NCBI RefSeq assembly: GCF_000735695.2
Contig: NZ_JASZ02000007.1
Span: 1-64,000, forward strand
Length of the DNA: 64,000 nucleotides
DNA from: Kaistella haifensis DSM 19056
GTDB lineage: Bacteria > Bacteroidota > Bacteroidia > Flavobacteriales > Weeksellaceae
Direction of reading: 5' to 3'
Shown here piece by piece: positions 40,677-58,084 of this stretch. The stretch's first letter is position 1. Every line of letters begins with the position of its first letter. The notes under the pieces are model-generated. The model was not told where the DNA came from, made no database searches, and was given only the letters and a program-made list of their open reading frames with translations. The translations under genes were made by a program, and so were the position numbers.

Positions 40677-40700
40677 TCGATTGACCAAAATATTATTTAA

Positions 40701-40734: not shown

Positions 40735-40841
40735 TTAAGTTGGTACTGATTGGGATTCATAATCAATGTTTTACAATCATCTAAAAATGAATGTTCACCA
40801 AATTTGTTCCCAATTTTAATTGAGATAGGGTAAAGTTTATT

Positions 40842-42609: not shown

Positions 42610-42644
42610 AAACCTCACACAACGATATGGATTGTATGAGGTTT
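42610..42644 (-). terminator. Minus-strand terminator abutting the left attachment site (probably the original ssrA terminator)
   Basis: AAACCTCA (42610-42617) pairs with TGAGGTTT (42637-42644), and the stem continues for 5 more positions with one mismatch. Read on the minus strand it ends in a T-rich tail. It lies 2 nt from the repeated tmRNA 3' end at 42647, the same arrangement as the terminator beside the intact ssrA. Confidence 0.7.
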
Positions 42645-42646
42645 AA

Positions 42647-42661
42647 GTGGAGTTGGAGGGA
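42647..42661. repeat. Left attachment site (attL) core repeat
   Basis: GTGGAGTTGGAGGGA, identical to the 3' end of ssrA at 55771-55785; after it the two copies differ (AATGAACC versus TTCGAACC). Confidence 0.8.
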
Positions 42662-42798: not shown

Positions 42799-44040
42799 AT
42801 GAATTATACTTTCAAATTAAAGCAACCTTCTTCAGATAACGAAACTTTGATTTATTTTCGGTCTTATTTTGTAAACGAAAATAAAAATTTTATCTATTCT
42901 ACAGGCGAAAAAATAACACCATCTGAATGGGATTTTGTAAACAGGCAACCAAATGATTTAAACGGACGAACAAAAAGGGCAGAGAATCATAGAAGCATTA
43001 AAAAACAATTAGATAGATACAGTGGTTATTTTACAGAAATTGTAAACCGTTATAAAAATATAAATGAGGAATTGACTTTAAATCTTTTGCGACAAAGATT
43101 TGATGAAGAATTCAAAAAAACAAAATCGAAAAATGATTTTTTTAGAATTTATGACGAATTTATTGAGGAAAAAGAAAATGATTACTCTGGAAATTCAATA
43201 TCAAATTCAACGCTTAAACGCTACAAATGCAATAAAACTTTGTTGGAAGATTTTGAATCCAAAGCAAATCATAAATTATCACTTGGCAAATTCAATGATA
43301 ACACATTCAATAAATTTTTAAAATTTTGCATTGAAGACAGAAAACATTCAGCAAATACCGTTCATAGAAATGTAGGGTTATTGAAAACTTTTTTACTTTG
43401 GGCTTTAAACAAAAAGTATAGTTATAATAATGATTTTATCAGTTTTAAGAAACCACCTAAATTCAGGACTGATGAAATTGCCTTGAATTACGAACAGGTT
43501 GAAACTATTTACAATCACGATTTTACGAAAAACAAAAGATTGGAAAGAGTTCGTGATTTATTTGTTTTTGGCTGTACTACGGGAATGAGATATGGTAATT
43601 ACAGTACAATTTCCAAAAGTGATATTGATGGCGACTTTATCCGAGTAATTGATTTGAAAAGTAAATCTAAAAACTTAGCAATTCCTTTAAACAGCATCTC
43701 TAAATCTATTCTTGAAAAGTACGACTACAATTTGCCCAATATTACGAACCAAAAAATGAATGAGTACATTAAAGAAGTATTTCAAGAATTGGAGTTTACG
43801 GATGAAATCAAAAAAACAATGAAATACGGTGATGAATTAGTGGAAATGAAGTCTGAATTTTGGGAAAGAATTTCTTCCCATACCGCCAGAAGAAGTTTTA
43901 TAACGATAATGAAAAATAAAAGAGTTCCAGATAAAGTGATTATGAGTTATACAGGACACACAAGTTTAGAAGTTTTCAACGCTTATTATAGACCAAGTGA
44001 AGAAGATAAAGTTAATTATATGAATGAAGTTTTTAAATAA
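42799..44040 (+). CDS. Tyrosine site-specific integrase of the ssrA element
   Basis: The 413-residue recombinase integrates and excises the element at the ssrA 3' end. An N-terminal arm-binding region (about 1-100) is followed by a SAM-like core-binding domain (about 110-210) and the catalytic domain. Catalytic residues visible are Arg264 in TTGMRYGN, His361 and Arg364 in SHTARRSF, His387 in YTGHTS and the nucleophile Tyr396 in NAYYRP. It is the first gene inside attL, reads inward, and starts directly after a pair of repeat sites that may be its own binding sites. Length is typical for Bacteroidetes element integrases. Confidence 0.93.
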   Translation: MNYTFKLKQPSSDNETLIYFRSYFVNENKNFIYSTGEKITPSEWDFVNRQPNDLNGRTKRAENHRSIKKQLDRYSGYFTEIVNRYKNINEELTLNLLRQRFDEEFKKTKSKNDFFRIYDEFIEEKENDYSGNSISNSTLKRYKCNKTLLEDFESKANHKLSLGKFNDNTFNKFLKFCIEDRKHSANTVHRNVGLLKTFLLWALNKKYSYNNDFISFKKPPKFRTDEIALNYEQVETIYNHDFTKNKRLERVRDLFVFGCTTGMRYGNYSTISKSDIDGDFIRVIDLKSKSKNLAIPLNSISKSILEKYDYNLPNITNQKMNEYIKEVFQELEFTDEIKKTMKYGDELVEMKSEFWERISSHTARRSFITIMKNKRVPDKVIMSYTGHTSLEVFNAYYRPSEEDKVNYMNEVFK

Positions 44041-44054
44041 TCACTGTTTTAAGA

Positions 44055-44783: not shown

Positions 44784-44861
44784 ATTTTACTGAATTTACC
44801 ATAATTCATAGATTAAAAACGCAAACAAGGAATATTTGTATAGAATTTTAAAACAAATGCT

Positions 44862-45140
44862 ATGCAAACAACCAATCCATTTCAACCTATTATGGACGGA
44901 TTAGAAGAGTTAAAAGAACTTATCCATTCCATAAAGAAAGAACCTGAAATCGAACTGAAAAAGAAATTTTATTCCTTTAAAGAGGCATCGGAAATTTTAA
45001 AGTTGGATTATCAGACCGTTCGCTCCCACGTTCTTAAGGGAAATATCAAAGCCGAAAAAATAGGCAGGTTTTACCGTATCAAGCATTTGGATTTGATGAA
45101 TGCTTTAAATGAAGTGAAATCATTGAAGTATCGAAGATAA
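44862..45140 (+). CDS. Excisionase-type helix-turn-helix protein
   Basis: The 92-residue protein contains a MerR/excisionase-like winged helix (HTH_17) at about residues 38-88: FYSFKEASEILKLDYQTVRSH, then KGNIKAEKIGRFYRIKHLDLM. Such small proteins in integrative elements act as recombination directionality factors or repressors. It follows the integrase and the unknown gene and precedes the helicase gene. Whether it drives excision or controls replication genes cannot be decided from sequence. The start ATG at 44862 gives an ordinary N-terminus. Confidence 0.85.
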   Translation: MQTTNPFQPIMDGLEELKELIHSIKKEPEIELKKKFYSFKEASEILKLDYQTVRSHVLKGNIKAEKIGRFYRIKHLDLMNALNEVKSLKYRR

Positions 45141-45215
45141 ATCAGCTTGTTTGTTTATCCGAACCATCATTCTCTAACCTTCCGTATCTATTACGGAGTA
45201 AAAATCCATACAAAA

Positions 45216-46454
45216 ATGCCCGAGAAAATTCCCTATTTACGAGTAGGCACGACCTATTATAAAACCATAGAAAAGCCGTTGATATCAGGAGATAAGATTT
45301 CAATATTGGTTCGCTGGAATCGGGAAACCATTATCAGCGATTATGGAAAAGTCTATGTTTCAAAAATTCCGAAATATGACGGTTTTTGTTGTATTCCTTC
45401 ACATTTGGATTATCAGCAAATCATTGACGGATTCTACAATATGTACAATGAAATTCCATTTCAACCAAGTGAGGAAAACATAAATTCTGAAGCTTTAAAA
45501 GAAAAAATCCCATTTTCATTAAATTTTATGGAACATATTTTCGGAGAACAGCTGGAACTTGGATTGGATTATATCAAAATTTTGCTTCAATATCCTATCC
45601 AAATGCTTCCGATTCTTTGCCTTGTAAGCAAAGAACGCTCTACAGGAAAATCTACCTTTATCAAATGGCTGAAATCCATTTTCGGACTTAATATGACCTA
45701 CATTAAAGGAGATTCTTTTAGTAGCCAATTTAACTCAGATTGGACTTCGATGCTCGTTGTTGCGATTGATGAAGTATTCTTTGACAGGAAAGAAATCACA
45801 GAACGTTTAAAATACCTTTCCACCACCAATAAAGATAAAATGGAAGCCAAAGGAAAAGATAGAGAAGAAGTAGATTTCTTTGCCAAATTCATCTTATGTT
45901 CCAACAATGAAGACAATTTTATTCAAATTGATGAAAACGAGATTCGTTTCTGGATACTGAAAGTAAAACCGATAAAAACGGAAAATACAGATTTTTTGAA
46001 TCGCTTAATTGCTGAAATTCCCTATTTATTGCGATTTCTGATTAAAAGACCTTTTCATTCCCATAAAAAGACAAGAATGTGGTTTTCGGCTACGGAAATC
46101 AGAACCAAAGCTTTGCAAAAACTCGTTTGGAAAAATAACAATCAATTGGAATCTAAAATGCTGGAGCTTTTCTACGAGTTTTTTGAAAGCCGTGAAGAAT
46201 TGGAAATTCAGGTTGTTCCGCAGGATGTTCTCAATATGGTGAACAAAATGTTCAAGCCTTATTTCTGGACAAGGAACGATATCAGAAAATTGCTGAAAGA
46301 CATCTGGAATTTAGAACCGCAGACCAATGGCTTAGCCTATATAAGATATGACATTGATTATGCCGGAATTTTCTATCAGAACAATTCCATTGGCAGATAT
46401 TACACCATTAAAAAAGATTTTATCCTTGAAAAATATGTTGATTTGTTGAATTGA
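45216..46454 (+). CDS. SF3/D5-like helicase (primase-helicase family)
   Basis: The protein of about 412 residues is a superfamily-3-like replicative helicase of mobile elements. It shows Walker A in SKERSTGKSTFIKW, Walker B in MLVVAIDEVFFD, and the sensor motif FILCSNNED followed by an Arg-containing EIRFWIL. The start is ATG 45216 (MPEKIPYLRVGTTYY); an upstream TTG frame at 45147 would add 23 residues that look non-coding. No primase active site is visible in it; the Toprim protein at 46725 may supply that activity. It is followed by an iteron-like array, consistent with replication initiation nearby. Confidence 0.85.
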   Translation: MPEKIPYLRVGTTYYKTIEKPLISGDKISILVRWNRETIISDYGKVYVSKIPKYDGFCCIPSHLDYQQIIDGFYNMYNEIPFQPSEENINSEALKEKIPFSLNFMEHIFGEQLELGLDYIKILLQYPIQMLPILCLVSKERSTGKSTFIKWLKSIFGLNMTYIKGDSFSSQFNSDWTSMLVVAIDEVFFDRKEITERLKYLSTTNKDKMEAKGKDREEVDFFAKFILCSNNEDNFIQIDENEIRFWILKVKPIKTENTDFLNRLIAEIPYLLRFLIKRPFHSHKKTRMWFSATEIRTKALQKLVWKNNNQLESKMLELFYEFFESREELEIQVVPQDVLNMVNKMFKPYFWTRNDIRKLLKDIWNLEPQTNGLAYIRYDIDYAGIFYQNNSIGRYYTIKKDFILEKYVDLLN

Positions 46455-46641
46455 AGGCTAATGAAAATAAAATCAATTACTTATCATTCAACAAAGTATT
46501 CAACAAACTTTTAAGACGTGATTTTTGTTGAGCGTTTGTTGAGAGAATAAAATCAAGTTTGTTGAAACGTTGAGAGTTTGTTGAGAGCATATCTATTTGT
46601 TTGATAAATGATTATGGCTTTTTCTCAACAATTCAACAAAA
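46442..46641. repeat. Iteron-like array of TTTGTTGA-type repeats (candidate replication origin)
   Basis: The core TTGTTGA, or its complement TCAACAA, occurs about nine times in 200 bp, for example at 46442, 46488, 46500, 46524, 46535, 46558, 46577, 46624 and 46633, in both orientations. The array lies between the helicase and primase genes of the element. Short repeats placed like this are typical of plasmid-type origins, so an origin of replication is inferred. Confidence 0.6.
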
Positions 46642-46724
46642 ATTTCACAAAATCAAATCCGACCAACTGAACCTTTCAAACACATCATTAAAATTCAGAA
46701 AATAATTAGAAAACTTATTACATT

Positions 46725-47690
46725 ATGAACTGTAAACAATTTAACAGCATATCGTTGGAAGAAGTACTCCAAAATCTCGGACACCTTCCCACGAAACAAA
46801 ATGAAAAAGAAGCCTGGTATCTTAATCCTTTCGGAGCAGAAAACCACGCCTCTTTTAAGCTCGATAAAAGACAGAACCTCTGGTTTCTGCATTCGGAAGG
46901 AATTGGCGGAACCAATACCGATTTTATGCAAAAATATCTGAACGCTTCTGTAAAAGAGGTTTTGGAGTGGGCGGAGAAACAACATTTTTCTTCTTTTCAA
47001 TCGCAAAACAAAATCCAAGCTCCAAACCAAAACCCTAAACAAGAACCCTCAAATTATCAAATCAGGGAAATCAAAGAGCTTCAAAATGAAAGTTTAAAAA
47101 ATTATCTACATGAAAGAGGACTTTCGCACAATATCTATCCGTTAGTTAAAGAAGTGCATTTTAAAATGGAAGATAAAAGCTTTTATGCCATCGGCTTTGA
47201 AAATCTTTCCAAAGGCTGGGAACTGCGAAACCAATATTACAAAGGTGCAATTTTGAAAAAGGATATTTCCATTATCAGTTTGAAAGATAAAAGCGATTTT
47301 AAGAATCAAAACGAAAACAGGAAAGACAGAAAAAACGTTGCCGTTTTCGAGGGTTTTATTGATGCTTTGTCGTTTATCGAGTTGCGAAAATCCTATTCAG
47401 GAGATTTGTTGGTAATGAATTCCGTTGCTTTGCTAAACAAGACCAAAGAAAACTTGAAAAGCTATTCGGAAATCAATCTTTTTCTGGACAATGACAATGC
47501 AGGAAAGAAATGCAGAAATGAGATTTTGCAATCCTTTCACAACGCTAAAGATTTTTCGGAAATCTACCACAATCACAAAGATTTGAACGAATTTTTGATT
47601 GAACGAATCAAAAGAGAAACCGAAATCCGACATCAAAAAGAACAGGAAGAACAACAGCAGAATGTTCAGGGTTTTAGACGAAGAAGATAA
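46725..47690 (+). CDS. Toprim-domain primase of the mobile element
   Basis: The 321-residue protein has an N-terminal CHC2-like module (about 1-75: WYLNPFGAENHASFKL, SEGIGGTNTDFMQKY) that lacks the zinc-binding cysteines of bacterial DnaG. A Toprim domain (about 195-300) has the conserved Glu in AVFEGFIDALSF and the DxD-type LFLDNDNAGKKC. This matches small primase-like proteins of Bacteroidetes mobilizable elements. It likely works with the helicase at 45216 on the iteron-like array between them. The C-terminus is rich in Gln/Glu and basic residues (QGFRRRR). Confidence 0.85.
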   Translation: MNCKQFNSISLEEVLQNLGHLPTKQNEKEAWYLNPFGAENHASFKLDKRQNLWFLHSEGIGGTNTDFMQKYLNASVKEVLEWAEKQHFSSFQSQNKIQAPNQNPKQEPSNYQIREIKELQNESLKNYLHERGLSHNIYPLVKEVHFKMEDKSFYAIGFENLSKGWELRNQYYKGAILKKDISIISLKDKSDFKNQNENRKDRKNVAVFEGFIDALSFIELRKSYSGDLLVMNSVALLNKTKENLKSYSEINLFLDNDNAGKKCRNEILQSFHNAKDFSEIYHNHKDLNEFLIERIKRETEIRHQKEQEEQQQNVQGFRRRR

Positions 47691-47716
47691 AAAAAATCCC
47701 AACATACTAAGTTATT

Positions 47717-47859
47717 AAAAATAATGCAGGGTGTATATTTTTTTACCAACTGTATGCAAAAGTTAGGAGCGCATTCGCAACTTTGAAGGTCGTTACTCTC
47801 CCAACAAAGTTTCTTCTGCGCTCTGCGAGGCTTTTAACCTGTAAAAAATAATGCAGGGT
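47717..47859. other. Candidate origin of transfer (oriT) region upstream of the relaxase
   Basis: AAAAATAATGCAGGGT occurs at 47717-47732 and 47844-47859. Between the copies a large imperfect hairpin is nested: GAGCGCA (47767-47773) with TGCGCTC (47817-47823), a 6/6-nt internal loop, then ACTTTG (47780-47785) with CAAAGT (47805-47810). The site lies 70-210 bp upstream of the relaxase gene, where MobV-type oriT sequences are commonly found. No nick site can be assigned from sequence alone. Confidence 0.5.
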
Positions 47860-47928
47860 TCAGGAATTAAAACAAATGAAGCTGTATCATCATGCGAATA
47901 TACATTGATATAAATAATAAATACATAA

Positions 47929-49089
47929 ATGAAAACATCGATTAATTTCAAAGCGGTGCAATCCGATTCTGAAACTCATAATTTTAGGAAGAAAACTTTT
48001 GATTATGTCCGCAAAGATTTGACCAAAAACAACGAATCTTGGATTGAAGAAAAAATAGCAGACCGAATCCAAAAAATCGAAAATTACTGCAAAGAAAAAT
48101 CGGGCAGAAAATTACAGAAAAACGCAATGCCGATTCGGGAAGCAGTCGTTTTGATAAAAGAAAATACCACGATGCAAGACCTGCATAACTTGTCAAAAAG
48201 GTTGGAGGAAGAATTGGGAATCCGTATTTTCCAGATTGCCATTCATAAAGATGAGGGGCATTACGATAAAGACACCAATGAATGGAAGCCAAATCTTCAC
48301 GCTCATTTGGTCGCAGATTGGCAGGATTTGCAAACTGGAAAAACCTTAAAACATCAATCTTTTCATTATTCCAAAATGCAGGATTTAGCTGCGGAATGTT
48401 TAGAAATGGAAAGAGGTGTTTCAGGTTCATTAGCAAGATTGGAGACGGTAGAATTTAAAATCAAGAAAAAGGAAGAAGATTTGAAAATTTTGGAAGAACG
48501 ATACAGTCAAATGCAACAAGAGATGGAATCTAAAAAAGCAGAAGATTTGATTATAAAGGAAACTGATTTTTTGGGTTTTCAGAAAATAAAAACGGACAAA
48601 ACGATTGAAAACTACAAAAAGGCAATCAAAACTAATAATATCCTACTTCTAAAAAACAAAACAGAGCTGGACTCCAAAGAGAAACAGATAGCAGAACTCA
48701 ATAACAAGATTGAAAGTCTGAAAAAAGAAGTTTTATTTTTCAAAAGCAAAAACTCCACGCTTCTAACCAATGAAACCGTTTTTGCTGTTGAAAAGAAAAA
48801 ATACTTGGATTCTGTAGAGCATACACTTAAAAAAGCCATTTTGCAAGAAAGTATAAAAATCCCGAATCTGCAAAATCTAAATGACACTGAGCTAAAAGAT
48901 AAAATGTTTGAAATATTGGAAAAAACTTCAAAAGAAAACCAAATACCAGTTTCTGCTTTTGAGGAGATTTTCGAAGATAAAGAGAAAATTTTTCGTGTGT
49001 TCAATCTGATGCAATTCAGATATATGGAAGACGATCGAATAAAAAAAGTTGAGGACGATATAACAAAGAAGAGCGGATTGAGAAGGTAA
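47929..49089 (+). CDS. MobV-type relaxase (mobilization protein)
   Basis: The 386-residue protein should nick the element at oriT and lead the strand into a recipient cell. The MobV/Pre-type motifs are visible: HNFR at residues 17-20 (the His is the likely nucleophile by analogy with MobM), and IHKDEGH (106-111) followed by PNLHAHLV with His124 and His126 as metal ligands. The remainder (about 150-340) is a long charged coiled coil. It is the only mobility protein besides the integrase, with no coupling protein or type IV secretion gene, so transfer would depend on a helper element. Confidence 0.85.
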   Translation: MKTSINFKAVQSDSETHNFRKKTFDYVRKDLTKNNESWIEEKIADRIQKIENYCKEKSGRKLQKNAMPIREAVVLIKENTTMQDLHNLSKRLEEELGIRIFQIAIHKDEGHYDKDTNEWKPNLHAHLVADWQDLQTGKTLKHQSFHYSKMQDLAAECLEMERGVSGSLARLETVEFKIKKKEEDLKILEERYSQMQQEMESKKAEDLIIKETDFLGFQKIKTDKTIENYKKAIKTNNILLLKNKTELDSKEKQIAELNNKIESLKKEVLFFKSKNSTLLTNETVFAVEKKKYLDSVEHTLKKAILQESIKIPNLQNLNDTELKDKMFEILEKTSKENQIPVSAFEEIFEDKEKIFRVFNLMQFRYMEDDRIKKVEDDITKKSGLRR

Positions 49090-49157
49090 TTGAAAAATAA
49101 AATTAGTAATTTTGACTATTTTTATATAGAATATAATAAGGGGGTAGTTGTTTGTAT

Positions 49158-49925
49158 ATGAAATACTTAATTTTTATATTTTTTAGTATCATAACTTATG
49201 GGCAAAATATAGTTTCGGGGAATGTTTCATCGGAGAATGGCTTTATAATACAAAATGTATTAGTAATCAACATAAAAACAGGAAGTAAAACATATACTAA
49301 TAATGAAGGGAGCTTTAAAATTAAAGCCAATGTAAATGACGAGCTACGATTTATAATAGAAAATTATGAGAGAGGTTCAAAAGTTGTTAAAAATAATGAC
49401 TTCTTAAACTCCATATCTATTCAGCTTGTTAGAGTTCCTATTGAGATTCAAGAAGTAAAAGTAGTTGCTAAACCCACAGGGGATTTAGAAAAAGATTCTA
49501 AAAAATTTAGTGTTGATAAAAAAACAACAGAGTTAAATGTTGCAATGAACAAATATATGAAGGAAAAACTTACTGAAGTACTACCTAAAAATAGTATTCC
49601 ATCTTCCTTTGCACCTCCAAACTTATATGCTGGTCAAGTGAATTTACTAAGTATTTTAGGGTTCATTATTAATCCAAAAGAATCTTTAGGAATTAAAAAT
49701 GATAAAATATTAAATTTTAGTGAAACTAACGAATTTTATAAAAAAGTGAAAGAAAGCTTTTATGGAAAATACTATATAGATTATGGGCTTGATGAATTTG
49801 AATTTGAAGCATATATTATTTATTTAGATAAAAAATATAAACTAGCAGAAAGGTATTATAATAATTTTAATAAAGTTGAAATTGAAAGAGTATTAAAAAA
49901 TTCATTGAAAGAATTTGTTAAATAG
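49158..49925 (+). CDS. Secreted carboxypeptidase-regulatory-like protein (cargo, relative of host genes at 56526 and 57323)
   Basis: The protein of about 255 residues has a signal peptide (MKYLIFIFFSIITYGQ) and a beta-sandwich of the carboxypeptidase D regulatory type (about 18-85; SGNVSSENGFIIQNVLVINI, NNEGSFKIKA). A family-specific C-terminal part follows, with KPTGDLEKDSKKF, LTEVLPKNSIPSSFAPPN and AGQVNLLSILG. The same motifs occur in the host protein at 56526 (LTEVVPKLSTPSAFAQPN, AGQADLLKLA). Function is unknown. The start is ATG 49158; a TTG two codons earlier was not chosen. It is very AT-rich and lies between the relaxase and the peptide gene, so it is probably recent cargo. Confidence 0.8.
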   Translation: MKYLIFIFFSIITYGQNIVSGNVSSENGFIIQNVLVINIKTGSKTYTNNEGSFKIKANVNDELRFIIENYERGSKVVKNNDFLNSISIQLVRVPIEIQEVKVVAKPTGDLEKDSKKFSVDKKTTELNVAMNKYMKEKLTEVLPKNSIPSSFAPPNLYAGQVNLLSILGFIINPKESLGIKNDKILNFSETNEFYKKVKESFYGKYYIDYGLDEFEFEAYIIYLDKKYKLAERYYNNFNKVEIERVLKNSLKEFVK

Positions 49926-50008
49926 GACAATCAGAGACCTTATTTTAAAAGTGAAACTGATAGTATATATGTCTTTTATGAATTTATATGTGCTAATAAA
50001 AAATATTT

Positions 50009-50047
50009 TTTGCAGTATTAAATTATTTTCATACTTTAGCAAAGTAT
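50009..50047 (+). promoter_or_regulatory. Promoter of the double-glycine peptide gene, with an inverted repeat
   Basis: TTTG (50009-50012), exactly 19 nt, TACTTTAG (50032-50039): a near match to the Bacteroidetes promoter. Overlapping and following the -7 box is the inverted repeat ATACTTT-AGC-AAAGTAT (50031-50047), a possible operator. Confidence 0.6.
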
Positions 50048-50070
50048 AACAAAATAAAAATATTTATTCT

Positions 50071-50253
50071 ATGAAAAATTTACAAGATTTACAAAACAAA
50101 GGAACAAAACTGTCTAAATCAAAAATGAGAAAAATTGGTGGTGGCTTATTTGGTATTTTCTGTATAACAGGTATTCTTGATGGAATTCCAGGAAATACAC
50201 ACTTTAGTTGGGGTTCTTGTCCAAAATCAGTTCAACCAATGGGACAAAATTAA
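50071..50253 (+). CDS. Double-glycine leader peptide with two cysteines (bacteriocin-like)
   Basis: The 60-residue peptide has a leader (residues 1-24/25) with the pattern LSKSKMRKIGGG, the kind cut by C39-peptidase exporters after the Gly pair. The predicted mature part is 35-36 residues, hydrophobic and Gly-rich (GGLFGIFCITGILDGIPG...), with Cys31 and Cys50 that could form one disulfide. Its own promoter precedes it and a terminator follows at 50272. The C39 exporter, an adaptor and a VKOR-thioredoxin protein lie just downstream. It could be a bacteriocin or a signalling peptide; killing activity is not shown by sequence. Confidence 0.82.
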   Translation: MKNLQDLQNKGTKLSKSKMRKIGGGLFGIFCITGILDGIPGNTHFSWGSCPKSVQPMGQN

Positions 50254-50271
50254 GATTGGTGAAAATCTAAT

Positions 50272-50295
50272 AATATGCCCTTAATTGGGCATATT
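50272..50295 (+). terminator. Intrinsic terminator between the peptide gene and the export operon
   Basis: AATATGCCC (50272-50280) pairs with GGGCATATT (50287-50295), followed by a run of T. It would let the peptide be made in excess over the export genes. Confidence 0.8.
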
Positions 50296-50312
50296 TTTTT
50301 TATACTATTAGC

Positions 50313-51368
50313 ATGAAGAAATACCTTATTATAATTTGTAGTTTTTTTTACATAATATTCAGCTCTCAAGTTGTTATTAATAGTAAAAACAAACAACCTA
50401 TATCAAATGTTGCTACTTTATCAAAAAATGGACAGATTCTTGGAGTATCTGATAAGGATGGAAAAATAACTATTTCTACCAAAGAAAATGAGTATAGAGT
50501 ATTAGACTCCGATACCATTGAATTAACTCATACAAATTTTGAAACACAGAGAATGATTTGGAAAAAATTCAAAAGCCAAGCTACATTTTCATTAAATCCT
50601 GTTGAGAATATTGAAGAAGTAGTGGTTTATGCTCAAAATCCTAATTATCTCGTTCTTAGAGCTTATTTTATTTCATACCAACTAATAGATGATACTCCTC
50701 AATCTTTTTCTGATGGCATTATTGAATACTATATTTCATTATCAAAAAATAAAATAATCAATTATAATATTCTTGAAACTCGAATTTATAAAAACACTGC
50801 ATTTATCTATGATTTTTACAAAAAAATGGGTAATACAACATTAAGCATGGGTTCACAAATTCTACCATTTAGTTTTAACGAAGAAGTGCTTTTGAATCGT
50901 TGGAATGATTTTAACATAACTCAAAACGATGAAATAAAATTAAAAGATAAAATCATAGGTAACATTGAAAAAAATAATAACAGTTCAAATATTTTCATTG
51001 AATACTATACCCCTTCAAGAATTCGAGAACAGTCTTTGTTAGGAATGTCCTCTAAAGTTGTAAATTATAACATTTCAGAAAGTTTTTATTCTGATGACCC
51101 ATCAATCAAAAACATTCAAACTATCTCAAAATACTATAAAAGTTTTATTACACAGAAAAAAAATAGTTTTAAATATGAATTGATTCAAAATGTTCAGATT
51201 TTGGGAAGGAAATTTTTATCAAAAAACGATTTTGAAAAGCTTAAAACAAATCTCAATCATTCTGAGAAAACAAAATATATAAATAATTATTGGGAACAAG
51301 AAGAGTTAATGAAAATACCATTATCTATAAAAAATCTTTTAAATAATAAACTTGAAATGGTAAAATAA
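50313..51368 (+). CDS. Exported protein with carboxypeptidase-regulatory-like N-domain, peptide operon
   Basis: The 351-residue product has a signal peptide (MKKYLIIICSFFYIIFSSQ) and a small beta-sandwich (about 20-90; NSKNKQPISNVATLS, GVSDKDGKITIST). A long C-terminal region (about 100-351), rich in Tyr, Asn and Lys, has no motif that I recognise. It is the first gene of a four-gene operon with the VKOR fusion, exporter and adaptor; the next gene starts 27 bp later. It could serve as an envelope partner of the export machinery or as an immunity factor, but both are guesses from position. It is strongly AT-rich. Confidence 0.75.
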   Translation: MKKYLIIICSFFYIIFSSQVVINSKNKQPISNVATLSKNGQILGVSDKDGKITISTKENEYRVLDSDTIELTHTNFETQRMIWKKFKSQATFSLNPVENIEEVVVYAQNPNYLVLRAYFISYQLIDDTPQSFSDGIIEYYISLSKNKIINYNILETRIYKNTAFIYDFYKKMGNTTLSMGSQILPFSFNEEVLLNRWNDFNITQNDEIKLKDKIIGNIEKNNNSSNIFIEYYTPSRIREQSLLGMSSKVVNYNISESFYSDDPSIKNIQTISKYYKSFITQKKNSFKYELIQNVQILGRKFLSKNDFEKLKTNLNHSEKTKYINNYWEQEELMKIPLSIKNLLNNKLEMVK

Positions 51369-51395
51369 ATTACCTAAATGTAAACTAAGACATTT

Positions 51396-52940
51396 ATGAC
51401 AGAATTTTTACTAAATGAGCTTATTCGTTTAAATGGCTATATAGTTAATGGAAAACGATTTAATGAATATTTTTTATCTCATCCTGATTATCCTAGTTTG
51501 TCAGCCATTGAAAATACTTTTGATACCTTTCATATAGAAAATGTCATATCCAAATTTGAAAATGAGCATTTTGAAGATTTGCCTGAAGTATTTATTTCTT
51601 CATTGAAGAACCATTTTTCTGATTTGGTTTTAATAATAAAAAAAGATTCAGAGGTACTTGTAATTGATAAGCAAAATAAATCATTTACATTTGGTTTTGA
51701 TGAATTTTTAAAACAATGGACAGGAATAGTAGTAGCTATTGAAAAGAAAGAAGAACCTACCCATATTGATACACCATCTGATAAAAATCAATTCAAGCAA
51801 TCGCTTAAATTTATCGCATTGGGGATTATTGGTCTTATCTTGGGTTATTCTTTGTGGAAATTCAGTATTTCAGAAGTTGCCTATATTGTAATATCCCTTG
51901 TAGGGCTATATTATTGTTTTGAGATTTACAAAAATAAGCATGGCGAAAAATCCATTATTGTAGATAAAATCTGCAATGATGAAAAAGAGGAAAGCTCATG
52001 CCAACAACTCATGCAATCAGACCAAATAAGCATTTTTGGATTAAAGCTCTCTGATATTGCCTTGTTTTACCTTCTTACAACAAACATTCTGGGGTTATTC
52101 ATTAATACTACTCAATTTCTAATCATCATATTATCTGTTGTAAACTTCCCTGTAATAGCTTATTCCTTATACATTCAGCTAGTTAAAGAGAAAAAGCTAT
52201 GTAAAGTATGCCTGATATTAATTTTTATTCTACTTATTCAGTCAGGAATAAGTTTGTTTTATTTTAATTATTCTTTTTCGGTAGAGGTTTTGATATTGGG
52301 TGCTATATATTTTCTTTCAATCCTTCCTTTATACATTTTTATTAACAAAACAATTGATGAAAAGAACAAACTGAAAAATGAAAATACCATCAATCTCAGA
52401 TTTAAAAGGAATTATGATATTTTTAAAAGAGAATTACTTACAACATCAAAAATTGGATTTGAGTATCAAAACTTATTCTTTTTAGGAAATAAGGATGCAA
52501 AAGTTCATTTTACACTTATCTCCAATCTTGAATGTAAATTTTGTGGAGAGGCACATAAGATTCTAAAAAAGCTCTATTTAGAAAATGGAAATGATAAATC
52601 TTTTCAAATCAGATTTAATTATTCTGATGAAAAAATGTCTATTCAAATTGAGAACATCTTTAAAACATTGCTTCATTTATATTCATCAACTGAAAAGCAA
52701 TTTTTAGAAGCATTGGATTTTTGGTATAAAGAAAGAAATTATAATGCTTTTATAAAGAAATTTGGGTTATATAATAATCAAAGTATAGACCTCATTCAGA
52801 AAATAAGGAATGAGAACTTGAACAAAGGACTTAATTTTACTCCAGCTTTTTTAGTTAATGGATTTATATTTCCTGAAAAATATGAGAAAGAAGATATTTT
52901 GTATTTCGCACAGGATTTAGTAGATGATGAAGAAATTTAA
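51396..52940 (+). CDS. VKOR-thioredoxin fusion, disulfide-forming enzyme of the peptide operon
   Basis: This 514-residue protein likely introduces disulfides in exported protein or peptide. An N-terminal domain (about 1-130) resembles a C39 peptidase fold without a catalytic Cys. A VKOR membrane domain follows with four to five helices (about 137-330), a loop Cys pair (Cys193, Cys202) and the active CKVC (269-272). A thioredoxin-like domain (about 350-514) carries CKFC (380-383) and the cis-Pro region NFTPAFLVNG. Electron flow Trx domain to VKOR to quinone is the known logic of such fusions. The nearby peptide has two cysteines, making it the obvious substrate (inference). The exporter gene begins 3 bp later. 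Confidence 0.87.
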   Translation: MTEFLLNELIRLNGYIVNGKRFNEYFLSHPDYPSLSAIENTFDTFHIENVISKFENEHFEDLPEVFISSLKNHFSDLVLIIKKDSEVLVIDKQNKSFTFGFDEFLKQWTGIVVAIEKKEEPTHIDTPSDKNQFKQSLKFIALGIIGLILGYSLWKFSISEVAYIVISLVGLYYCFEIYKNKHGEKSIIVDKICNDEKEESSCQQLMQSDQISIFGLKLSDIALFYLLTTNILGLFINTTQFLIIILSVVNFPVIAYSLYIQLVKEKKLCKVCLILIFILLIQSGISLFYFNYSFSVEVLILGAIYFLSILPLYIFINKTIDEKNKLKNENTINLRFKRNYDIFKRELLTTSKIGFEYQNLFFLGNKDAKVHFTLISNLECKFCGEAHKILKKLYLENGNDKSFQIRFNYSDEKMSIQIENIFKTLLHLYSSTEKQFLEALDFWYKERNYNAFIKKFGLYNNQSIDLIQKIRNENLNKGLNFTPAFLVNGFIFPEKYEKEDILYFAQDLVDDEEI

Positions 52941-52943
52941 AAA

Positions 52944-55145
52944 ATGAAATCAAAAAATTTCCCTTTCTATAAACAACCTGATGCTAAAGATTGTGGGCCT
53001 AGTTGCTTACGAATTATCTGTAAACACTATGGTAAAACAGTACCCTTACAACATATAAGAAAATTAGCTGAAACCACAAGGGAAGGCAGTAATTTATCAG
53101 GATTGAGCGAAGCTGCTGAAAGTTTAGGCTTTGATACTCTTGGAATGAAAATCAATTTTGAGGTATTAAAAAATGATACTCCACTACCATGTATTGTACA
53201 TTGGAAAAAAGTACATTATGTGGTTGTTTATGAAATTGATAACAAAGATAATACTGTTTATGTTTCAGACCCTGCTTATGGTTTAATATCTTATTCTAAA
53301 GAAGATTTTATCAAATCTTGGATTGGAGAAGAAGCAGACGAAACTACTGAAGAAGGTATTATTTTGGCTTTGGAAGCCACGCCAAAATTCTTTCAAACCA
53401 AATTTAAAGATAGTGAAAATAAAGCCAGTATTTCATTTCTTTTAAAATACCTGATAAAATATAAAAGGCTCGTAATACAGCTAATTATTGGGCTTTTGAT
53501 AGGAAGTTTATTAACCCTAGTATTTCCATTTCTTACTCAAAGTATTGTAGATATTGGAATAAAAAGTCAGGATTTAAACATTATATATCTTATTCTTTTA
53601 GCACAAGTAATGTTATTTATAGGAAAGATGGGTTTTGATATAGTGAGAAGCTGGATTTTACTGCATCTTTCTACAAGAATTAATATATCCATCGTTTCAG
53701 ATTTTTTCATTAAACTGATGAAACTTCCCATTAGTTGCTTTGATACGAGAATGACAGGAGATATATTACAAAGAATAGACGACCATCATAGAATTGAGCA
53801 GTTATTAACCAATACTTCTCTGAATATTTTGTTTTCATTGGTTAATCTTGTTGTTTTTAGTGCTGTACTGTTTTTCTACGACTACAGACTATTTCTTGTA
53901 TTTCTTTTAGGAGCTGTTCTGTATATGGCTTGGGTTTTATTCTTTTTCAAAAAGAGGAAACTATTAGATTATGAGAAATTTGGTCAGATGTCTCAGGAGA
54001 GAAGCAAAGTAATAGAGCTGATTAATGGAATGCAGGACATCAAACTGCATAATGCTGAAAGGAAAAAAAGATGGGCTTGGGAATCCATACAGTTGGAACT
54101 GTTCAAAATTAAAATAAAGTCTCTTTCTTTAGAACAATGGCAGTCTGTGGGTGGAAATTTTATCAATCAAATGAAAGATGTTTTTGTGAGCTTTCTTTCT
54201 GCTAAATTGGTTTTAAGTGGTAATCTTACTTTAGGGATGATGCTTTCTGTTCAGTATATCATTGGGCAGTTAAACAGCCCTCTGTTACAGCTAATTGAAT
54301 TTATTAAGCAATCACAGGATGCCAAAATATCTTTAGAGCGATTGGGAGAAATCCATGATAAAGAAGACGAGGAAAACAAAGATGAGCAATATACTACTGA
54401 AATTCCTAAAAAAGACATTCAAATAAAAGATGTTTCTTTCAGATATATAGGTTCAGAGGATTTTATTTTTGAAAATCTTAATCTGAATATTCCTTATCAA
54501 AAAACTACTGCTATTGTTGGTGCAAGTGGGAGTGGGAAAACTACATTACTGAAATTGTTACTGAAATTCTATGAACCTGTTAATGGAGAAATAAAAATAG
54601 GAAATACCAATATCAATACAATTTCTCCAAAATTCTGGAGGGAACATTGTGGCGTAGTGATGCAGGAGGGTTATGTTTTTAATGATACCATTGCTGAAAA
54701 TATTGTAGTTGGCGATGATAATATAGATGAAGAGAAATTAAAAAAATCAATTGAAATAGCTAATATTAAAGATTTTGTTGATGGTTTACCCCTCCATCAA
54801 AATACACAAATTGGAAATGAAGGTATAGGAATGAGTGGAGGACAAAAGCAAAGATTGTTTATTGCAAGGGCTGTATATAAATCCCCTGAATATATCTTTT
54901 TTGATGAAGCTACAAGCTCTTTAGATGCCAAAAATGAAAGAGTTATCATGCAAAATCTAAAACAATTTTTTGAAGGTAAAACAGCCATTGTAATTGCTCA
55001 TAGATTATCTACTGTTAAAAATGCAGATAAAATTATTGTGTTGGATAAAGGAAAAGTAGTGGAAGAAGGTACACATAATGAATTAGTAACAATGCAAGGA
55101 GAATATTATCGTTTAATTAAAGACCAGTTAGAACTTGGAAACTAA
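52944..55145 (+). CDS. C39-peptidase ABC exporter (bacteriocin-type)
   Basis: The 733-residue inner-membrane protein cleaves double-glycine leaders and exports the peptide. The N-terminal C39 domain has Gln11, Cys17 (KDCGPSCL), His91 (HWKKVHYVVVY) and Asp109 (VSDPAYG). Six transmembrane segments lie at about 165-450. The ATPase (about 490-730) has Walker A GASGSGKTTLL, signature GMSGGQKQRL, Walker B YIFFDEATSSLD and the switch His in VIAHRLST. All key residues are present, so it should be active. It lies in the same operon as the VKOR fusion and overlaps the adaptor gene by 11 nt. The leader peptide at 50071 is its probable substrate. Confidence 0.95.
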   Translation: MKSKNFPFYKQPDAKDCGPSCLRIICKHYGKTVPLQHIRKLAETTREGSNLSGLSEAAESLGFDTLGMKINFEVLKNDTPLPCIVHWKKVHYVVVYEIDNKDNTVYVSDPAYGLISYSKEDFIKSWIGEEADETTEEGIILALEATPKFFQTKFKDSENKASISFLLKYLIKYKRLVIQLIIGLLIGSLLTLVFPFLTQSIVDIGIKSQDLNIIYLILLAQVMLFIGKMGFDIVRSWILLHLSTRINISIVSDFFIKLMKLPISCFDTRMTGDILQRIDDHHRIEQLLTNTSLNILFSLVNLVVFSAVLFFYDYRLFLVFLLGAVLYMAWVLFFFKKRKLLDYEKFGQMSQERSKVIELINGMQDIKLHNAERKKRWAWESIQLELFKIKIKSLSLEQWQSVGGNFINQMKDVFVSFLSAKLVLSGNLTLGMMLSVQYIIGQLNSPLLQLIEFIKQSQDAKISLERLGEIHDKEDEENKDEQYTTEIPKKDIQIKDVSFRYIGSEDFIFENLNLNIPYQKTTAIVGASGSGKTTLLKLLLKFYEPVNGEIKIGNTNINTISPKFWREHCGVVMQEGYVFNDTIAENIVVGDDNIDEEKLKKSIEIANIKDFVDGLPLHQNTQIGNEGIGMSGGQKQRLFIARAVYKSPEYIFFDEATSSLDAKNERVIMQNLKQFFEGKTAIVIAHRLSTVKNADKIIVLDKGKVVEEGTHNELVTMQGEYYRLIKDQLELGN

Positions 55146-55671
55146 AATAGAAAGAGAAAATCTCAATGATTCAGAATTGCGTTCAACAGGTGTGCAAAAT
55201 CTATTGAATAAACTTCCTTATTGGCTAATCTTAAAGGGAAACTTTTTAATTTCTGTAATATTGATTATTTTTTTATTATTCATAGGATATTCTGTAAAAT
55301 ATCCTGAATTTGTTAATTCTAAAATAACTATTATTCCTCAAAATATTCAAAATAATAACCAGAAAAATAAGACTATAGCAGGATTGCTTACAGTTTCTAA
55401 AAGTGATTCAAAAAAAATAAAAATAGGTCAAAAGGTTATTATTAAATTGTATGACTTCCCCTATCAGGAATATGGAGTACTGGAAGGACAAGTACATAAT
55501 ACATCACTTATTCCTAACGGAAAAAATGACTTTTATGTAAATGTATATTTTCCTAAAGGCTTAAAAACTTCTTTTGCTAAAAACATTCCTTCTAACAAAG
55601 AACTTAAAGGAAGTGCTGAAATTGTTATTAATACAGAATTAATTAAAAAACTTTTCAATCAAATCAAATAA
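55135..55671 (+). CDS. Small HlyD-type adaptor lacking the coiled-coil hairpin
   Basis: Exporter adaptors link the ABC protein to the outer membrane. This one has only 178 residues: a cytoplasmic stub (1-32), one membrane helix (about 33-52), the post-membrane motif VKYPEFVNSKITI, and then directly the C-terminal beta domain (IKIGQKVIIKLYDFPYQEYGVLEGQV, GLKTSFAKNIP, ELKGSAEIV). The lipoyl domain and the long alpha-hairpin found in usual HlyD relatives (about 400 residues) are absent. The start is TTG 55135, inside the exporter's last codons, so translation is coupled. It could be an internally deleted gene or a true minimal adaptor; the frame is clean, with no stop or shift. Confidence 0.75.
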   Translation: METKIERENLNDSELRSTGVQNLLNKLPYWLILKGNFLISVILIIFLLFIGYSVKYPEFVNSKITIIPQNIQNNNQKNKTIAGLLTVSKSDSKKIKIGQKVIIKLYDFPYQEYGVLEGQVHNTSLIPNGKNDFYVNVYFPKGLKTSFAKNIPSNKELKGSAEIVINTELIKKLFNQIK

Positions 55672-55770: not shown

Positions 55771-55785
55771 GTGGAGTTGGAGGGA
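55771..55785. repeat. Right attachment site (attR) core repeat inside ssrA
   Basis: GTGGAGTTGGAGGGA, forming the tmRNA acceptor stem and part of the T arm on the minus strand; the direct repeat partner is at 42647-42661. Confidence 0.8.
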
Positions 55786-56168
55786 TTCGAACCCTCGTCC
55801 AAACAAGCAACACGTAAGCTTTCTACATGCTTATTCTGTGTTTGGTTTTCGATCGTAAACAGAGCACAGACACCCAATTTACGACTTATCTTCTTTAGTT
55901 TTCGTGCTTTGGCCGAAGTTTCCAAAACCTTATTTCCGCATTGCTATACCCCGGAATCAGACGTCGCGAAACAGAACTTCTGCGGGATATCTTGCTTCCT
56001 TACTATACTTCGGGAAAACGCTGAATCCTACTGTAATTCGGATTAAGCTGCAAGAGCAAACTCTTGGTCGCCAGTTAAAATTGTGTAGCAAGGGATTAAA
56101 GAGATCGCGCTACGGTTCTCTGCATGCTTACTTACCCATTGATCTTGCTGTCGAAACCAGTCAACCCC
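55772..56168 (-). tRNA. ssrA: Transfer-messenger RNA (tmRNA)
   Basis: tmRNA rescues stalled ribosomes and tags the unfinished protein. The minus strand begins GGGGTTGACTGGTTTCGACA at 56168 and ends with the T arm GGGTTCGAATCCC and acceptor strand CAACTCC plus discriminator A at 55772. The 7-bp acceptor stem pairs, with one G-U, and CCA is not encoded. The tag frame at 56072-56046 reads GDQEFALAA, then TAA (56045-56043), close to the Bacteroides-type GETNYALAA. The length is about 397 nt. Its 3' end is the integration target of the mobile element, which restores the full sequence. The feature type list has no tmRNA entry, so tRNA is used here. Confidence 0.93.
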
Positions 56169-56224: not shown

Positions 56225-56378
56225 GGGCGTGTCCTTCCGTCGGTCATTTTGCCGCGCCCGCCTTCGGCGGGCGCGGCGTCATTTCCTCCTTCAGGCCGGG
56301 CTTTCCGCTATATCTTTTTCAGTAGCGGCGGCGGAGCCGCCGCTACTGAAAAAGGATGCCGCTTCTATCCCTCACGCG
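56225..56378. repeat. GC-rich structured intergenic element with two long hairpins
   Basis: Within this AT-rich chromosome a roughly 150-bp GC-rich block holds two near-perfect hairpins. GCCGCGCCCGCC (56251-56262) pairs with 56266-56277 around TTC. TTTTTCAGTAGCGGCGGC (56315-56332) pairs perfectly with 56336-56353 around GGA. GCGTG at 56227-56231 and CACGC at 56373-56377 can close the whole block. No reading frame looks coding. The layout recalls short structured intergenic repeats seen in other Bacteroidetes genomes, but I know no name for it, and multi-copy status is not testable here. It lies between ssrA and the gene at 56526. Confidence 0.6.
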
Positions 56379-56525
56379 AGAGCAGTGTTTCCCGATCACC
56401 CGGATTCCCAAAATATTTAACGTTTAAGCGAAGAGAACTTTCTAAAAAAATTCATAAAAGCGTTAACGGAGGTTAAACTTTAAAAAGTGTAGTTAAAAAA
56501 AATTACTTTTAATAAAAATTTGCCA

Positions 56526-57323
56526 ATGAAACCAAAATTACTCCTTCTATTTCTGCTAGTTTGCTCGTCTCTTTTGTTTTCTCAGGAATATATTTTTGGG
56601 AAAGTTTCTACCGACTTGGGGGACAAACTTCCCGATGCTGTGGTGATCAATATGAGAACCGATGAGAAAATTGTTTCAGATCGAGATGGAAACTTTATGA
56701 TAGCAGCCAAAAATGGCGATGAAATTCGTGTTTTGAAAAATACTTACGAAAGATTTGTACAAAAAGTTTCGAGCGAAAATTTCTTAAAACCATTGAATGT
56801 TACATTGTCCAAAGCGCCTTATTTAATTGAAGAAATCGAATTGGCATTTCAAGCCACGGGAAATCTGAAAAAAGATGTGAAATCCCTAGATCCACCGAAA
56901 AGGGTAGTTGCGTTAAATTCCTCGATGGATTTTTATATGAAGTCACCGTTAACCGAAGTGGTACCGAAACTTTCAACGCCTTCCGCATTTGCTCAACCGA
57001 ATTATAATGCAGGCCAAGCTGACCTTCTGAAACTGGCTTCTGCTTTGTCAGGTTTGTTTAATAAAGCCACACAACAACCGCTTACGAAAGCCAACTATGC
57101 CGAAACCCAGGAGTTTTACCGCAGAATTAAAACTACGATGGATTTGAGTTTTTATACCAATCAAGGTTGGGATGAGGAGGAAATCGACCGTTTCTTGATT
57201 TATGCAGATCGTTCGTATGAATTGGCCAAAAAGTACCGAAAATCATTTGATGTTGCACAAATCAGTGCGGAGATGAAAATGGCTTACGCGGAATACATTA
57301 AAACCAGAAAAATTGGCTCTTGA
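56526..57323 (+). CDS. Exported carboxypeptidase-regulatory-like protein (first of a tandem pair)
   Basis: The protein of 265 residues has a signal peptide (ending LLFSQ), a carboxypeptidase D regulatory-type beta-sandwich (about 20-85; IFGKVSTDLGDKLPDAVVIN, RDGNFMIAA) and a C-terminal region with ATGNLKKDVKSL, LTEVVPKLSTPSAFAQPN and AGQADLLKLASALSG. The start is ATG 56526; an upstream TTG would add two residues. The C-terminal motifs are shared with the mobile-element cargo at 49158 and, in part, with the next gene. The stop overlaps the next start (TGATG), so the two form an operon. Function is unknown; extracytoplasmic location is predicted. Confidence 0.82.
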   Translation: MKPKLLLLFLLVCSSLLFSQEYIFGKVSTDLGDKLPDAVVINMRTDEKIVSDRDGNFMIAAKNGDEIRVLKNTYERFVQKVSSENFLKPLNVTLSKAPYLIEEIELAFQATGNLKKDVKSLDPPKRVVALNSSMDFYMKSPLTEVVPKLSTPSAFAQPNYNAGQADLLKLASALSGLFNKATQQPLTKANYAETQEFYRRIKTTMDLSFYTNQGWDEEEIDRFLIYADRSYELAKKYRKSFDVAQISAEMKMAYAEYIKTRKIGS

Positions 57324-58084
57324 TGACCCGGTTTCTTGTGCTGATTATGATTTATTTTTCGCAGCATGTTTTCTCTCAAATTGTTTCAGGCATTGTTACT
57401 GATGAAGATGGACGTCCATTACCTGCGGTTTTGGTGATTAATGTCTCAACCAATCAGAAAACTACAACCAATCTTAATGGTGAATTTTCAATAGAGGCTT
57501 CACCGCAAAACGAATTAAGATTTGTGCGAAATGGTTTTGAGCGGAATTCACACATTATCAAAGAAATTGATTTTAATAATCCTGTTAAAGTTTCCCTTTT
57601 AAGAATGATTGAAGAAATTGAAGAGGTAAAAGTTTCTTCGTTGAAATTAACCGGTGATTTGAATAAAGATTCCAAAAGCTTAACTAAAATAGACAAAACT
57701 GCACAAGTTGAGAAAGCAGTTGGAATTCCGGGACCACCAGAAAAACCTCGAGAAAAACCTGCGGAATTTAAAAAAGATGTACTGTATTCATTACTTTCTT
57801 TAAGCGTTAAACCGCAGGCGATTTATGATTTAATTAGCGGTGATGCAAGACGCATGAAGGCAGAATATCGCTATGAAGATCTACAAGAAAATATAAGCTG
57901 GATACGACAACGTATCGACGATGATTATTTTGTCAAAATGGGGATTCCTCAGGGAAAAATTTCCGAATTTCTGCAATTTTCAATTGGATTAAAGCCTGAA
58001 ATTAATCAGTTCATTAAAGCAAAAAATCTGTCGAAAATACTTTTCATTTTAGAAGATACTTTACCAGTTTACCTGCATAAATAA
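57323..58084 (+). CDS. Exported carboxypeptidase-regulatory-like protein (second of a tandem pair)
   Basis: The 253-residue relative of the preceding gene has a signal peptide (MTRFLVLIMIYFSQHVFSQ), the beta-sandwich (SGIVTDEDGRPLPAVLVINV, NLNGEFSIEA), then a spacer with LTGDLNKDSKSLTK and a Pro/Lys-rich stretch near 135-145. Its C-terminal region is shorter and lacks the PS.FA.PN motif. The start ATG overlaps the previous stop by 1 nt, so translation is coupled. No catalytic residues are seen. Tandem duplication followed by divergence is the simplest explanation. It is host chromosome, outside the mobile element. Confidence 0.8.
   Translation: MTRFLVLIMIYFSQHVFSQIVSGIVTDEDGRPLPAVLVINVSTNQKTTTNLNGEFSIEASPQNELRFVRNGFERNSHIIKEIDFNNPVKVSLLRMIEEIEEVKVSSLKLTGDLNKDSKSLTKIDKTAQVEKAVGIPGPPEKPREKPAEFKKDVLYSLLSLSVKPQAIYDLISGDARRMKAEYRYEDLQENISWIRQRIDDDYFVKMGIPQGKISEFLQFSIGLKPEINQFIKAKNLSKILFILEDTLPVYLHK

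Follow-up and report, generated by a model that had tools for sequence, protein, structure and literature searches.

The 64,000-nucleotide stretch of contig NZ_JASZ02000007.1 from Kaistella haifensis DSM 19056 (the window) contains a putative mobile element at the transfer-messenger RNA (tmRNA) gene ssrA, and the cargo of this element includes a gene for a double-glycine (GG) peptide with two cysteines. It is accompanied by genes for a VKOR-thioredoxin fusion, a C39-peptidase ABC exporter, a short HlyD-type adaptor and two exported-looking partner proteins, one of which resembles the outer-membrane-assembly protein BamP (Table 1). The best explanation, to which we assign a probability of roughly 0.55, is that these genes form a mobile module similar to those of class II bacteriocins. 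With these genes, the element seems equipped for the synthesis, folding and secretion of a short peptide, probably directed against related bacteria, and the spare copy of an outer-membrane-assembly protein may protect the producer.

The two-cysteine peptide and its family

The precursor has no cysteines other than Cys31 and Cys50, and its leader ends in MRKIGGG, which leaves 35 or 36 residues after the cut. The predicted charge of the peptide is approximately neutral. Direct reading of the open reading frame (ORF) agreed with a preliminary description of this DNA, which had reported a 60-residue GG peptide with these two cysteines and had further assigned the gene a promoter and a terminator of its own. 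The terminator was recovered as a hairpin followed by a T run, and the region holds six terminator-like sites as compared to a mean of 1.7 in shuffled sequences. The promoter is less secure. Bacteroidota-type promoters follow the consensus TTTG-N19-TACTTTAG, and the site upstream of the gene is weak because shuffling the stretch yields such a site 7% of the time.

No NCBIfam or Pfam model matched the window's peptide at E-values up to 1, nor was the peptide found in a search of plasmids at the same limit. A profile of four family members gave strong matches in four of 320 Weeksellaceae genomes (G000, G202, G130 and G279), including the window's own, and the same search located a decayed copy in G255. 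All other matches had E-values of 1e-7 or worse, 171 genomes having one at E up to 0.05, and among the matches listed the weaker ones lie mostly over the leader. In a draw of 296 genomes from the phylum, matches at E up to 1e-6 were confined to the window's own genome, and the draw evidently did not contain the known relatives. The peptide family is rare.

The peptide of genome G130 is 66% identical to that of the window and nearly the same from the first cysteine onward. The peptides of Chryseobacterium pennae and Chryseobacterium sp. BLS98 are more distant and retain the double glycine. The motifs C-x-T and W-x-x-C are present in all four, with the first cysteine at the sixth residue past the glycines in three of them and at the eleventh in G130.

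Oxidase fusion, exporter and adaptor

The fusion matched Pfam VKOR (E 4e-10) and Thioredoxin_4 (E 9e-8). The VKOR cysteine pairs and the thioredoxin CxxC reported previously (Cys193/202, Cys269/272 and Cys380/383) are present, and all six cysteines are invariant in the eight aligned proteins, the window's included. What had been overlooked is a third, N-terminal domain at residues 34-119, which is related to C39 peptidases (Pfam Peptidase_C39, E 3e-5). This domain lacks the catalytic cysteine, since there is no cysteine in the first 170 residues. Other degenerate C39 domains bind leaders, and by analogy it is a natural guess that this one would bind the leader of the peptide.

The exporter conforms to the earlier account of a C39 ABC exporter with intact catalytic residues. 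Its Pfam domains, the peptidase included, exceed their cut-offs, the C39 Cys, His and Asp are present as judged by eye from the motif, and TIGR01193 scored 443 bits against a cut-off of 523.85. The third protein had been called a small adaptor, and it is indeed short and weakly related to HlyD, but there is more to it than its size. It aligns with the N-terminal membrane-anchor and C-terminal parts of a 434-amino-acid form, with approximately 250 central residues missing. Short adaptors were identified at four loci (the window, G019, BLS98 and C. pennae), with a more distant one in G184, and a fresh break is therefore unlikely. In ordinary HlyD proteins, the lipoyl and hairpin parts, through which the protein contacts the outer-membrane channel, lie in this central stretch. 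Judged by its 434-amino-acid relative, the window's adaptor differs from HlyD-type membrane fusion proteins in lacking the lipoyl/coiled-coil hairpin region.

Genome G184 (L132:8601-13202) has another short adaptor and a C39 exporter next to a tmRNA gene. They are followed by a 422-amino-acid protein with weak TPR/esterase matches, and no GG peptide was recognised in the part of this stretch that was read.

The module in related genomes

The order of peptide, VKOR fusion, C39 exporter and adaptor, for which a genome search had been suggested, recurs in C. pennae and, with a full-length adaptor, in G130, but not in BLS98, where the fusion precedes the peptide. The agreement is closest in C. pennae (L125/L148), which has the window's order throughout: BamP-like protein, two-cysteine GG peptide, partner (28% identical to the window's 351-amino-acid protein), fusion, exporter and a short adaptor of 172 amino acids. 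This module is flanked by an integrase and, at its opposite end, by tRNA-Gln. In BLS98 (L045/L149), the genes for the fusion, a LanB protein, a BamP-like protein, a 277-amino-acid CarboxypepD_reg protein, the peptide, the exporter and a short adaptor follow each other on one strand near tRNA-Gln, and the stretch contains no match to the window's integrase. The LanB dehydratase gene (L045:11086-14028), with both of its Pfam parts, lies between the fusion and the BamP-like gene; LanC was not recognised among the nearby proteins scanned. In G130, the peptide is accompanied by the partner (64% identical), the fusion, the exporter and the adaptor, and the same stretch holds three other GG peptides alternating with GLPGLI proteins. 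Thus, a BamP-like protein of the element's own clade is found near the peptide at three of the four loci.

Less complete versions were also observed. G255 has a decayed remnant of the module, and G019 has the exporter and a short adaptor (77% identical) on a 3,565-base contig that is too short to show the peptide region. Outside the family, two Cytophagales plasmids have the annotated order of VKOR protein, small ORFs, C39 exporter and HlyD, and a match in Parabacteroides had no exporter in its stretch. In Epilithonimonas bovis (L151:9980-20483, L058), a BamP-like gene is followed by ORFs that look like LanB and LanC by eye and by GG peptides, and the region also contains a GLPGLI-looking protein, a fusion, a C39 exporter and an adaptor.

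Cysteine parity at oxidase loci

The fusion was matched in 110 of 246 genomes of the family, and the pairing of exporter and oxidase is therefore ordinary there. We surveyed 60 regions chosen from the better-scoring fusion matches rather than at random (19 of the 20 in one set of fusion matches, a further 40, and one of the 18 in another set), a sample that includes G130, BLS98 and C. pennae and leaves out the window. Two regions without an intact fusion (L048 and L049) were dropped. Near the intact fusion of the remaining 58 loci, a C39 exporter on the same strand within approximately 6.8 kb was present at 51, an adaptor at 49 and a GG peptide at 50, as recognised by a home-made leader pattern in ORFs of at most 130 amino acids. 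At 45 of the 58 loci, a GG peptide had two or more cysteines.

Among 116 distinct mature GG sequences, 98 had an even number of cysteines (two or more), as compared to five with an odd number of three or more, three with a single cysteine and ten with none. Four or six cysteines were present in 93 of them. The background at 62 other loci was 7, a rough figure since a single strand around the centre of each locus was counted. Such an excess of even counts is consistent with disulfides, as far as can be read from sequence, although a binomial value for it is not to be taken at face value with sequences that are related to each other. It also offers a simple way into the many GG peptides of this kind, which seem little studied. 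The preliminary description had named homologous loci without a cysteine-bearing leader peptide as evidence to look for against it, and this objection was not borne out; in addition to the 45 loci above, both cysteines are kept at all four intact loci of the peptide family, the window included. Its central claim, that a mobile element carries an export module for a GG peptide together with what is needed to introduce a disulfide, is thus supported by the parts, the locus counts and the even-cysteine excess.

The combination of exporter, oxidase and cysteine-bearing GG peptide is an ordinary trait of the Weeksellaceae. What is unusual here is the rare two-cysteine peptide family, the presence of two partner proteins, of which the BamP-like one belongs to a clade of its own, and the loss of the central region from the adaptor.

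The BamP-like protein

BamP is a subunit of the beta-barrel assembly machinery (BAM) of Flavobacterium johnsoniae, described in 2025, and its central loop blocks the seam of BamA according to the part of PMC12611786 used here. The BamP-like ORF of the element, at whose ATG the region of the preliminary description starts, had been left undescribed there, as had the 351-amino-acid protein. It matched the NCBIfam BamP model (NF053692) with an E-value of 2e-10 and 40.8 bits against a cut-off of 230; the host's other bamP-like copies also score below this cut-off. The protein has a signal-peptide-like start (by eye), a CarboxypepD_reg-like domain, a long loop and, in the predicted model, a helical C-terminal domain.

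A profile built from three element and two chromosomal copies matched BamP in the PDB (9n2d_E) with an E-value of 8e-5 over positions 1-259, while a SusC homolog scored slightly higher over the first domain only. In a Foldseek search with the predicted model (mean predicted local distance difference test (pLDDT) 71, loop disordered), 9n2d_E ranked first (E 6e-6; template-modelling score 0.29/0.49; root-mean-square deviation 21) and the N-terminal domain of SusC second. Since SusC ranks next to BamP in both the profile and the fold search, most of the BamP signal resides in the N-terminal domain. A single-sequence search against solved structures gave no match better than E 0.055. Homology to BamP, as suggested by profile and model, is likely but not certain.

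The gene could be unrelated to the peptide, having been captured from a chromosomal bamP-like pair that chances to adjoin ssrA. The element does adjoin two such genes (56520-57323 and 57320-58084), and the type at 56520-57323 occurs in 31 of 36 genomes of the genus and lies beside ssrA in the six relatives examined. However, the element's protein is only 34% and 31% identical to these neighbours, as compared to 49% and 47% to the module copies of C. pennae and BLS98. The three module proteins form one clade with support 100/100, near one tandem type, whereas a freshly captured copy would group with a neighbour, and a fresh capture is therefore contradicted. The clade was obtained both from 39 of 177 gathered rows (without the third copy of the host's own genome) and from a second set of 30 rows, nine of them added. 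The C. pennae and BLS98 modules, moreover, lie near tRNA-Gln on other contigs than the remaining bamP-like genes of those hosts. We thus consider local capture improbable.

Kaistella antarctica is the nearest named relative in the tree for the ssrA-side pair, with 57% and 60% identity. It has a counterpart of the second gene, 57320-58084, which has none at that place in five relatives of the genus (L252-L256). A scan with the three BamP-like proteins gave 66 loci, two of which are the C. pennae and BLS98 modules. Another 62 loci hold other bamP-like genes, which often occur in tandem and were regarded as chromosomal; in the stretch examined around them, nothing matched the fusion, exporter, adaptor, peptide or 351-amino-acid protein. 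The remaining two are a fragment in C. taichungense and the Epilithonimonas bovis region with GG peptides.

The 351-amino-acid partner protein

The first 110 or so positions of the 351-amino-acid protein match the BamP-like profile (96% probability), and the N-terminal domain is shared. No solved relative was found by sequence, and the AlphaFold model was poor (mean pLDDT 60), and its fold matches were not used. The protein is kept together with the closest peptide homolog in G130, where there is no BamP-like protein of the element type, and of the two partners it is therefore the likelier cognate one. An assignment to the GLPGLI family was rejected, with 7% probability in the profile comparison.

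We examined the genes following 115 cysteine-bearing GG peptides, a set that excludes the window and from which the filter also left out the C. pennae pair. A GLPGLI gene lay just downstream of 21 peptides, a gene of the 351-amino-acid type downstream of one, and neither was found for 93. Pairing of GG peptides with GLPGLI or 351-amino-acid-type genes is a minority pattern. GLPGLI proteins may be peptide partners; at L044:5691-9389, L047 and L048 their genes lie directly 3' of cysteine-bearing GG peptide genes. Nothing was found in the literature library searched that joins GLPGLI with bacteriocin or with Chryseobacterium. Tandem relatives of the 351-amino-acid protein (333-347 amino acids and longer) were observed at L134, L135 and L136, in stretches where neither the fusion nor the exporter was matched.

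The element at ssrA

The probable limits of the element are the att-like copy (42647-42661) on the left and, on the right, the tmRNA gene at 55771 (Table 1). At the right end, blastn homology with five relatives of the genus begins at 55771 in four and at 55707 in the fifth, and homology of Kaistella antarctica to the window also begins at 55771. On the left, 34000-42640 had no blastn match in the stretches of the five relatives, and an empty site for this end was not seen. The preliminary description had regarded the module as AT-rich cargo on a mobilizable element. The composition agrees, the guanine-plus-cytosine content being 0.25-0.31 in the cargo genes, 0.32 at 42799-49089 and 0.37-0.39 in the flanks. 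Mobility is supported by the integrase and the 15-bp att-like repeat at ssrA, whereas the match of the relaxase candidate (21.5 bits) is just below the Pfam cut-off of 24.6.

Table 1. Features of the ssrA element and its cargo, in window coordinates
Feature	Position	Strand	Basis
Left att-like copy of ssrA 3' end	42647..42661	.	15-bp identical core; repeat search
Tyrosine integrase, 413 aa (amino acids)	42799..44040	+	Pfam Phage_integrase E 6e-13, Arm-DNA-bind_5
HTH_17 protein, 92 aa	44862..45140	+	Pfam E 3e-8
DUF5906/VapE-like replication-type protein, 435 aa	45147..46454	+	Pfam E 2e-19
Toprim primase-like protein, 321 aa	46725..47690	+	Pfam Toprim_2 E 3e-14
MobA-like relaxase candidate, 386 aa	47929..49089	+	Pfam Relaxase E 3e-4
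BamP-like protein, 255 aa from ATG 49158 or 257 aa from TTG 49152	49158..49925	+	NCBIfam BamP
Bacteroidota-type promoter-like site	50009..50040	+	TTTG-N19-TACTTTAG, one mismatch
Double-glycine peptide precursor, 60 aa, Cys31 and Cys50	50071..50253	+	ORF reading
Terminator-like hairpin with T run, 3' of peptide gene	50272..50295	+	Stem search
Partner protein, 351 aa, signal-peptide-like start (by eye)	50313..51368	+	Between peptide and fusion
Fusion of degenerate C39-like domain, VKOR and thioredoxin, 514 aa	51396..52940	+	Pfam, alignment
C39-peptidase ABC exporter, 733 aa	52944..55145	+	Peptidase_C39 E 3e-34, ABC_membrane, ABC_tran
Short HlyD-type adaptor, 178 aa, TTG start	55135..55671	+	Weak TIGR01843 E 1e-5
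Right att core at 3' end of ssrA	55771..55785	.	ARAGORN and repeat search
tmRNA gene ssrA, integration target	55771..56168	-	ARAGORN

An ssrA element may be present in genome G019 too; on its contig C131 (L302), a bamP-like gene is found together with a stretch resembling tmRNA and an ORF resembling an integrase, as judged by eye. In the window, a perfect 19-bp GC-rich inverted repeat (56314-56354) lies between ssrA and the bamP-like pair. To the left of the element, SusD-like, glycosidase-like and sugar-kinase-like genes were recognised by eye at 35056-40676, perhaps a fructan-use locus.

Proposed mechanism and alternatives

Sequence shows which parts are present, how they are ordered, that they recur and that the cysteines are conserved, and from this we infer cleavage, oxidation, antibacterial action and immunity. 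Cutting of the leader after the glycines during export is established for C39 exporters, and the exporter's peptidase would read the leader of the precursor and cut past its glycines in this manner. In the envelope, the VKOR-thioredoxin fusion would join Cys31 to Cys50, and its inactive C39-like domain would probably bind the same leader or dock on the exporter, thereby coupling oxidation to export. The product would be a peptide of 35-36 residues with a single disulfide, and its site of action would be the periplasm or outer membrane of related Bacteroidota. The best candidates for immunity are the two partner proteins that look exported, of which the BamP-like protein would occupy BamA and shield it. 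We regard a disulfide-bearing GG peptide as highly probable and an antibacterial action of this peptide as somewhat probable, and immunity by the partner proteins can be proposed tentatively.

Several observations weigh against the bacteriocin-like module. At seven of the 58 fusion loci there was no near same-strand exporter under the rule used, at 13 there was no cysteine-bearing GG peptide, and the surveyed loci are related and do not count as independent observations. A TolC-type channel seems out of reach for the short adaptor. In BLS98, a different protein, the 277-amino-acid CarboxypepD_reg protein, takes the place of the partner, and the presence of LanB in the same gene run implies that modification there may exceed a disulfide. 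The BamP-like proteins of G130 fall outside the element clade, and thus not every member needs one of the element type. The window's peptide is approximately neutral, in contrast to bacteroidetocins A and B, with charges of +6 and +2 in the portion of PMC6671954 used for comparison. Finally, the portions of PMC6671954 and PMC8546649 used here describe bacteroidetocin producers as killed by their own toxins, with no immunity gene found in the regions studied, and such a peptide therefore need not bring immunity.

A more specific version of this explanation, drawn by analogy and in our view unlikely, is that the disulfide peptide is directed at BamA and that the antidote is a diverged BamP-type subunit, which would replace BamP on BamA and shield the producer, much as F. 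johnsoniae is protected from darobactin by its BamP homologs. In this version, the mobile element would confer immunity by subunit replacement, its oxidase would read the leader, and its adaptor, lacking the hairpin, would deliver the peptide only to the periplasm.

An alternative function for the peptide is that of a secreted signal, a GG pheromone locked by a disulfide and sensed by kin, which the partner proteins would receive or help to process. Pheromones are among the substrates of C39 exporters, the module has one recognised GG peptide with a terminator-like site of its own, and the near-neutral charge is in line with this function. However, no kinase or response-regulator domain was found among the six cargo proteins scanned, many related loci have more than one cysteine-bearing GG peptide, which is more suggestive of an arsenal than of a signal, and the cargo includes a protein resembling a BAM subunit. 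A signalling role thus appears quite improbable. Least probable of all is that the peptide is a dehydrated or thioether-bridged member of the ribosomally synthesized and post-translationally modified peptides, with the fusion merely keeping thiols in the right state: LanB shares the gene run of fusion, BamP-like gene, peptide and exporter in BLS98, and LanB-like large ORFs (by eye) occur with a BamP-like gene and GG peptides in Epilithonimonas bovis, but LanB and LanC, which mark class I lanthipeptides, had no match among the ten main element proteins scanned or, by Pfam, among two more, none was seen by eye in the C. pennae module ORFs, and most of the distinct GG sequences surveyed (93 of 116) have four or six cysteines.

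A peptide module that is mobile and brings a BamP-like protein of its own would link the action of bacteroidetocins on BamA to protection by BamP, and self-protection would become testable in Flavobacteria.

Comparison with known systems

In the literature library searched, no title listed describes this module and nothing was found on BamP with a bacteriocin in Flavobacterium, which does not in itself prove absence from print. Bacteroidetocins were compared by their published feature descriptions rather than by peptide sequence, and the statements below refer to the portions of the cited papers available for this comparison. They are class IIf bacteriocins with a leader of 15-16 amino acids ending in GG and a mature part of 35-50 amino acids (PMC6671954), and they act through BamA (PMC8546649, PMC6671954). 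A thiol oxidoreductase is found in most bacteroidetocin regions, and the five best bacteroidetocins have four cysteines and 42-48 mature residues (PMC6671954).

The window's module resembles these systems in its Bacteroidota host, GG leader, C39 ABC exporter, thiol oxidoreductase, at least two cysteines and location on a horizontally acquired element, and its mature length of 35-36 residues is at the low end of the bacteroidetocin range. In contrast, its leader of 24-25 amino acids is longer than 15-16, the peptide has two cysteines, whereas the best five bacteroidetocins have four, the oxidase is a C39-like/VKOR/thioredoxin fusion, and an adaptor and two more cargo proteins are present. A separate gene with five transmembrane segments, a feature of bacteroidetocin regions, was not recognised by eye in 49152-55671.

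In the predicted model, the BamP-like protein has its N-terminal domain, loop and C-terminal domain arranged as in F. johnsoniae BamP (9n2d), and by profile it aligns colinearly with BamP over nearly the full length, although it is diverged, as seen in its bit score. BamP homologs diverge markedly in the central loop, and deletion of all four homologs made F. johnsoniae sensitive to darobactin in an outer-membrane-opening background, as stated in the part of PMC12611786 used here.

The GG peptides of the Weeksellaceae that are named bacteriocin-like (NF047798, NF047792) have exporters and fusions of the same families as the window, together with cysteine-bearing GG peptides and HlyD. The window's module differs from this kind in having two cysteines where theirs have mostly four or six, a short adaptor, a BamP-like partner and a location on an element.

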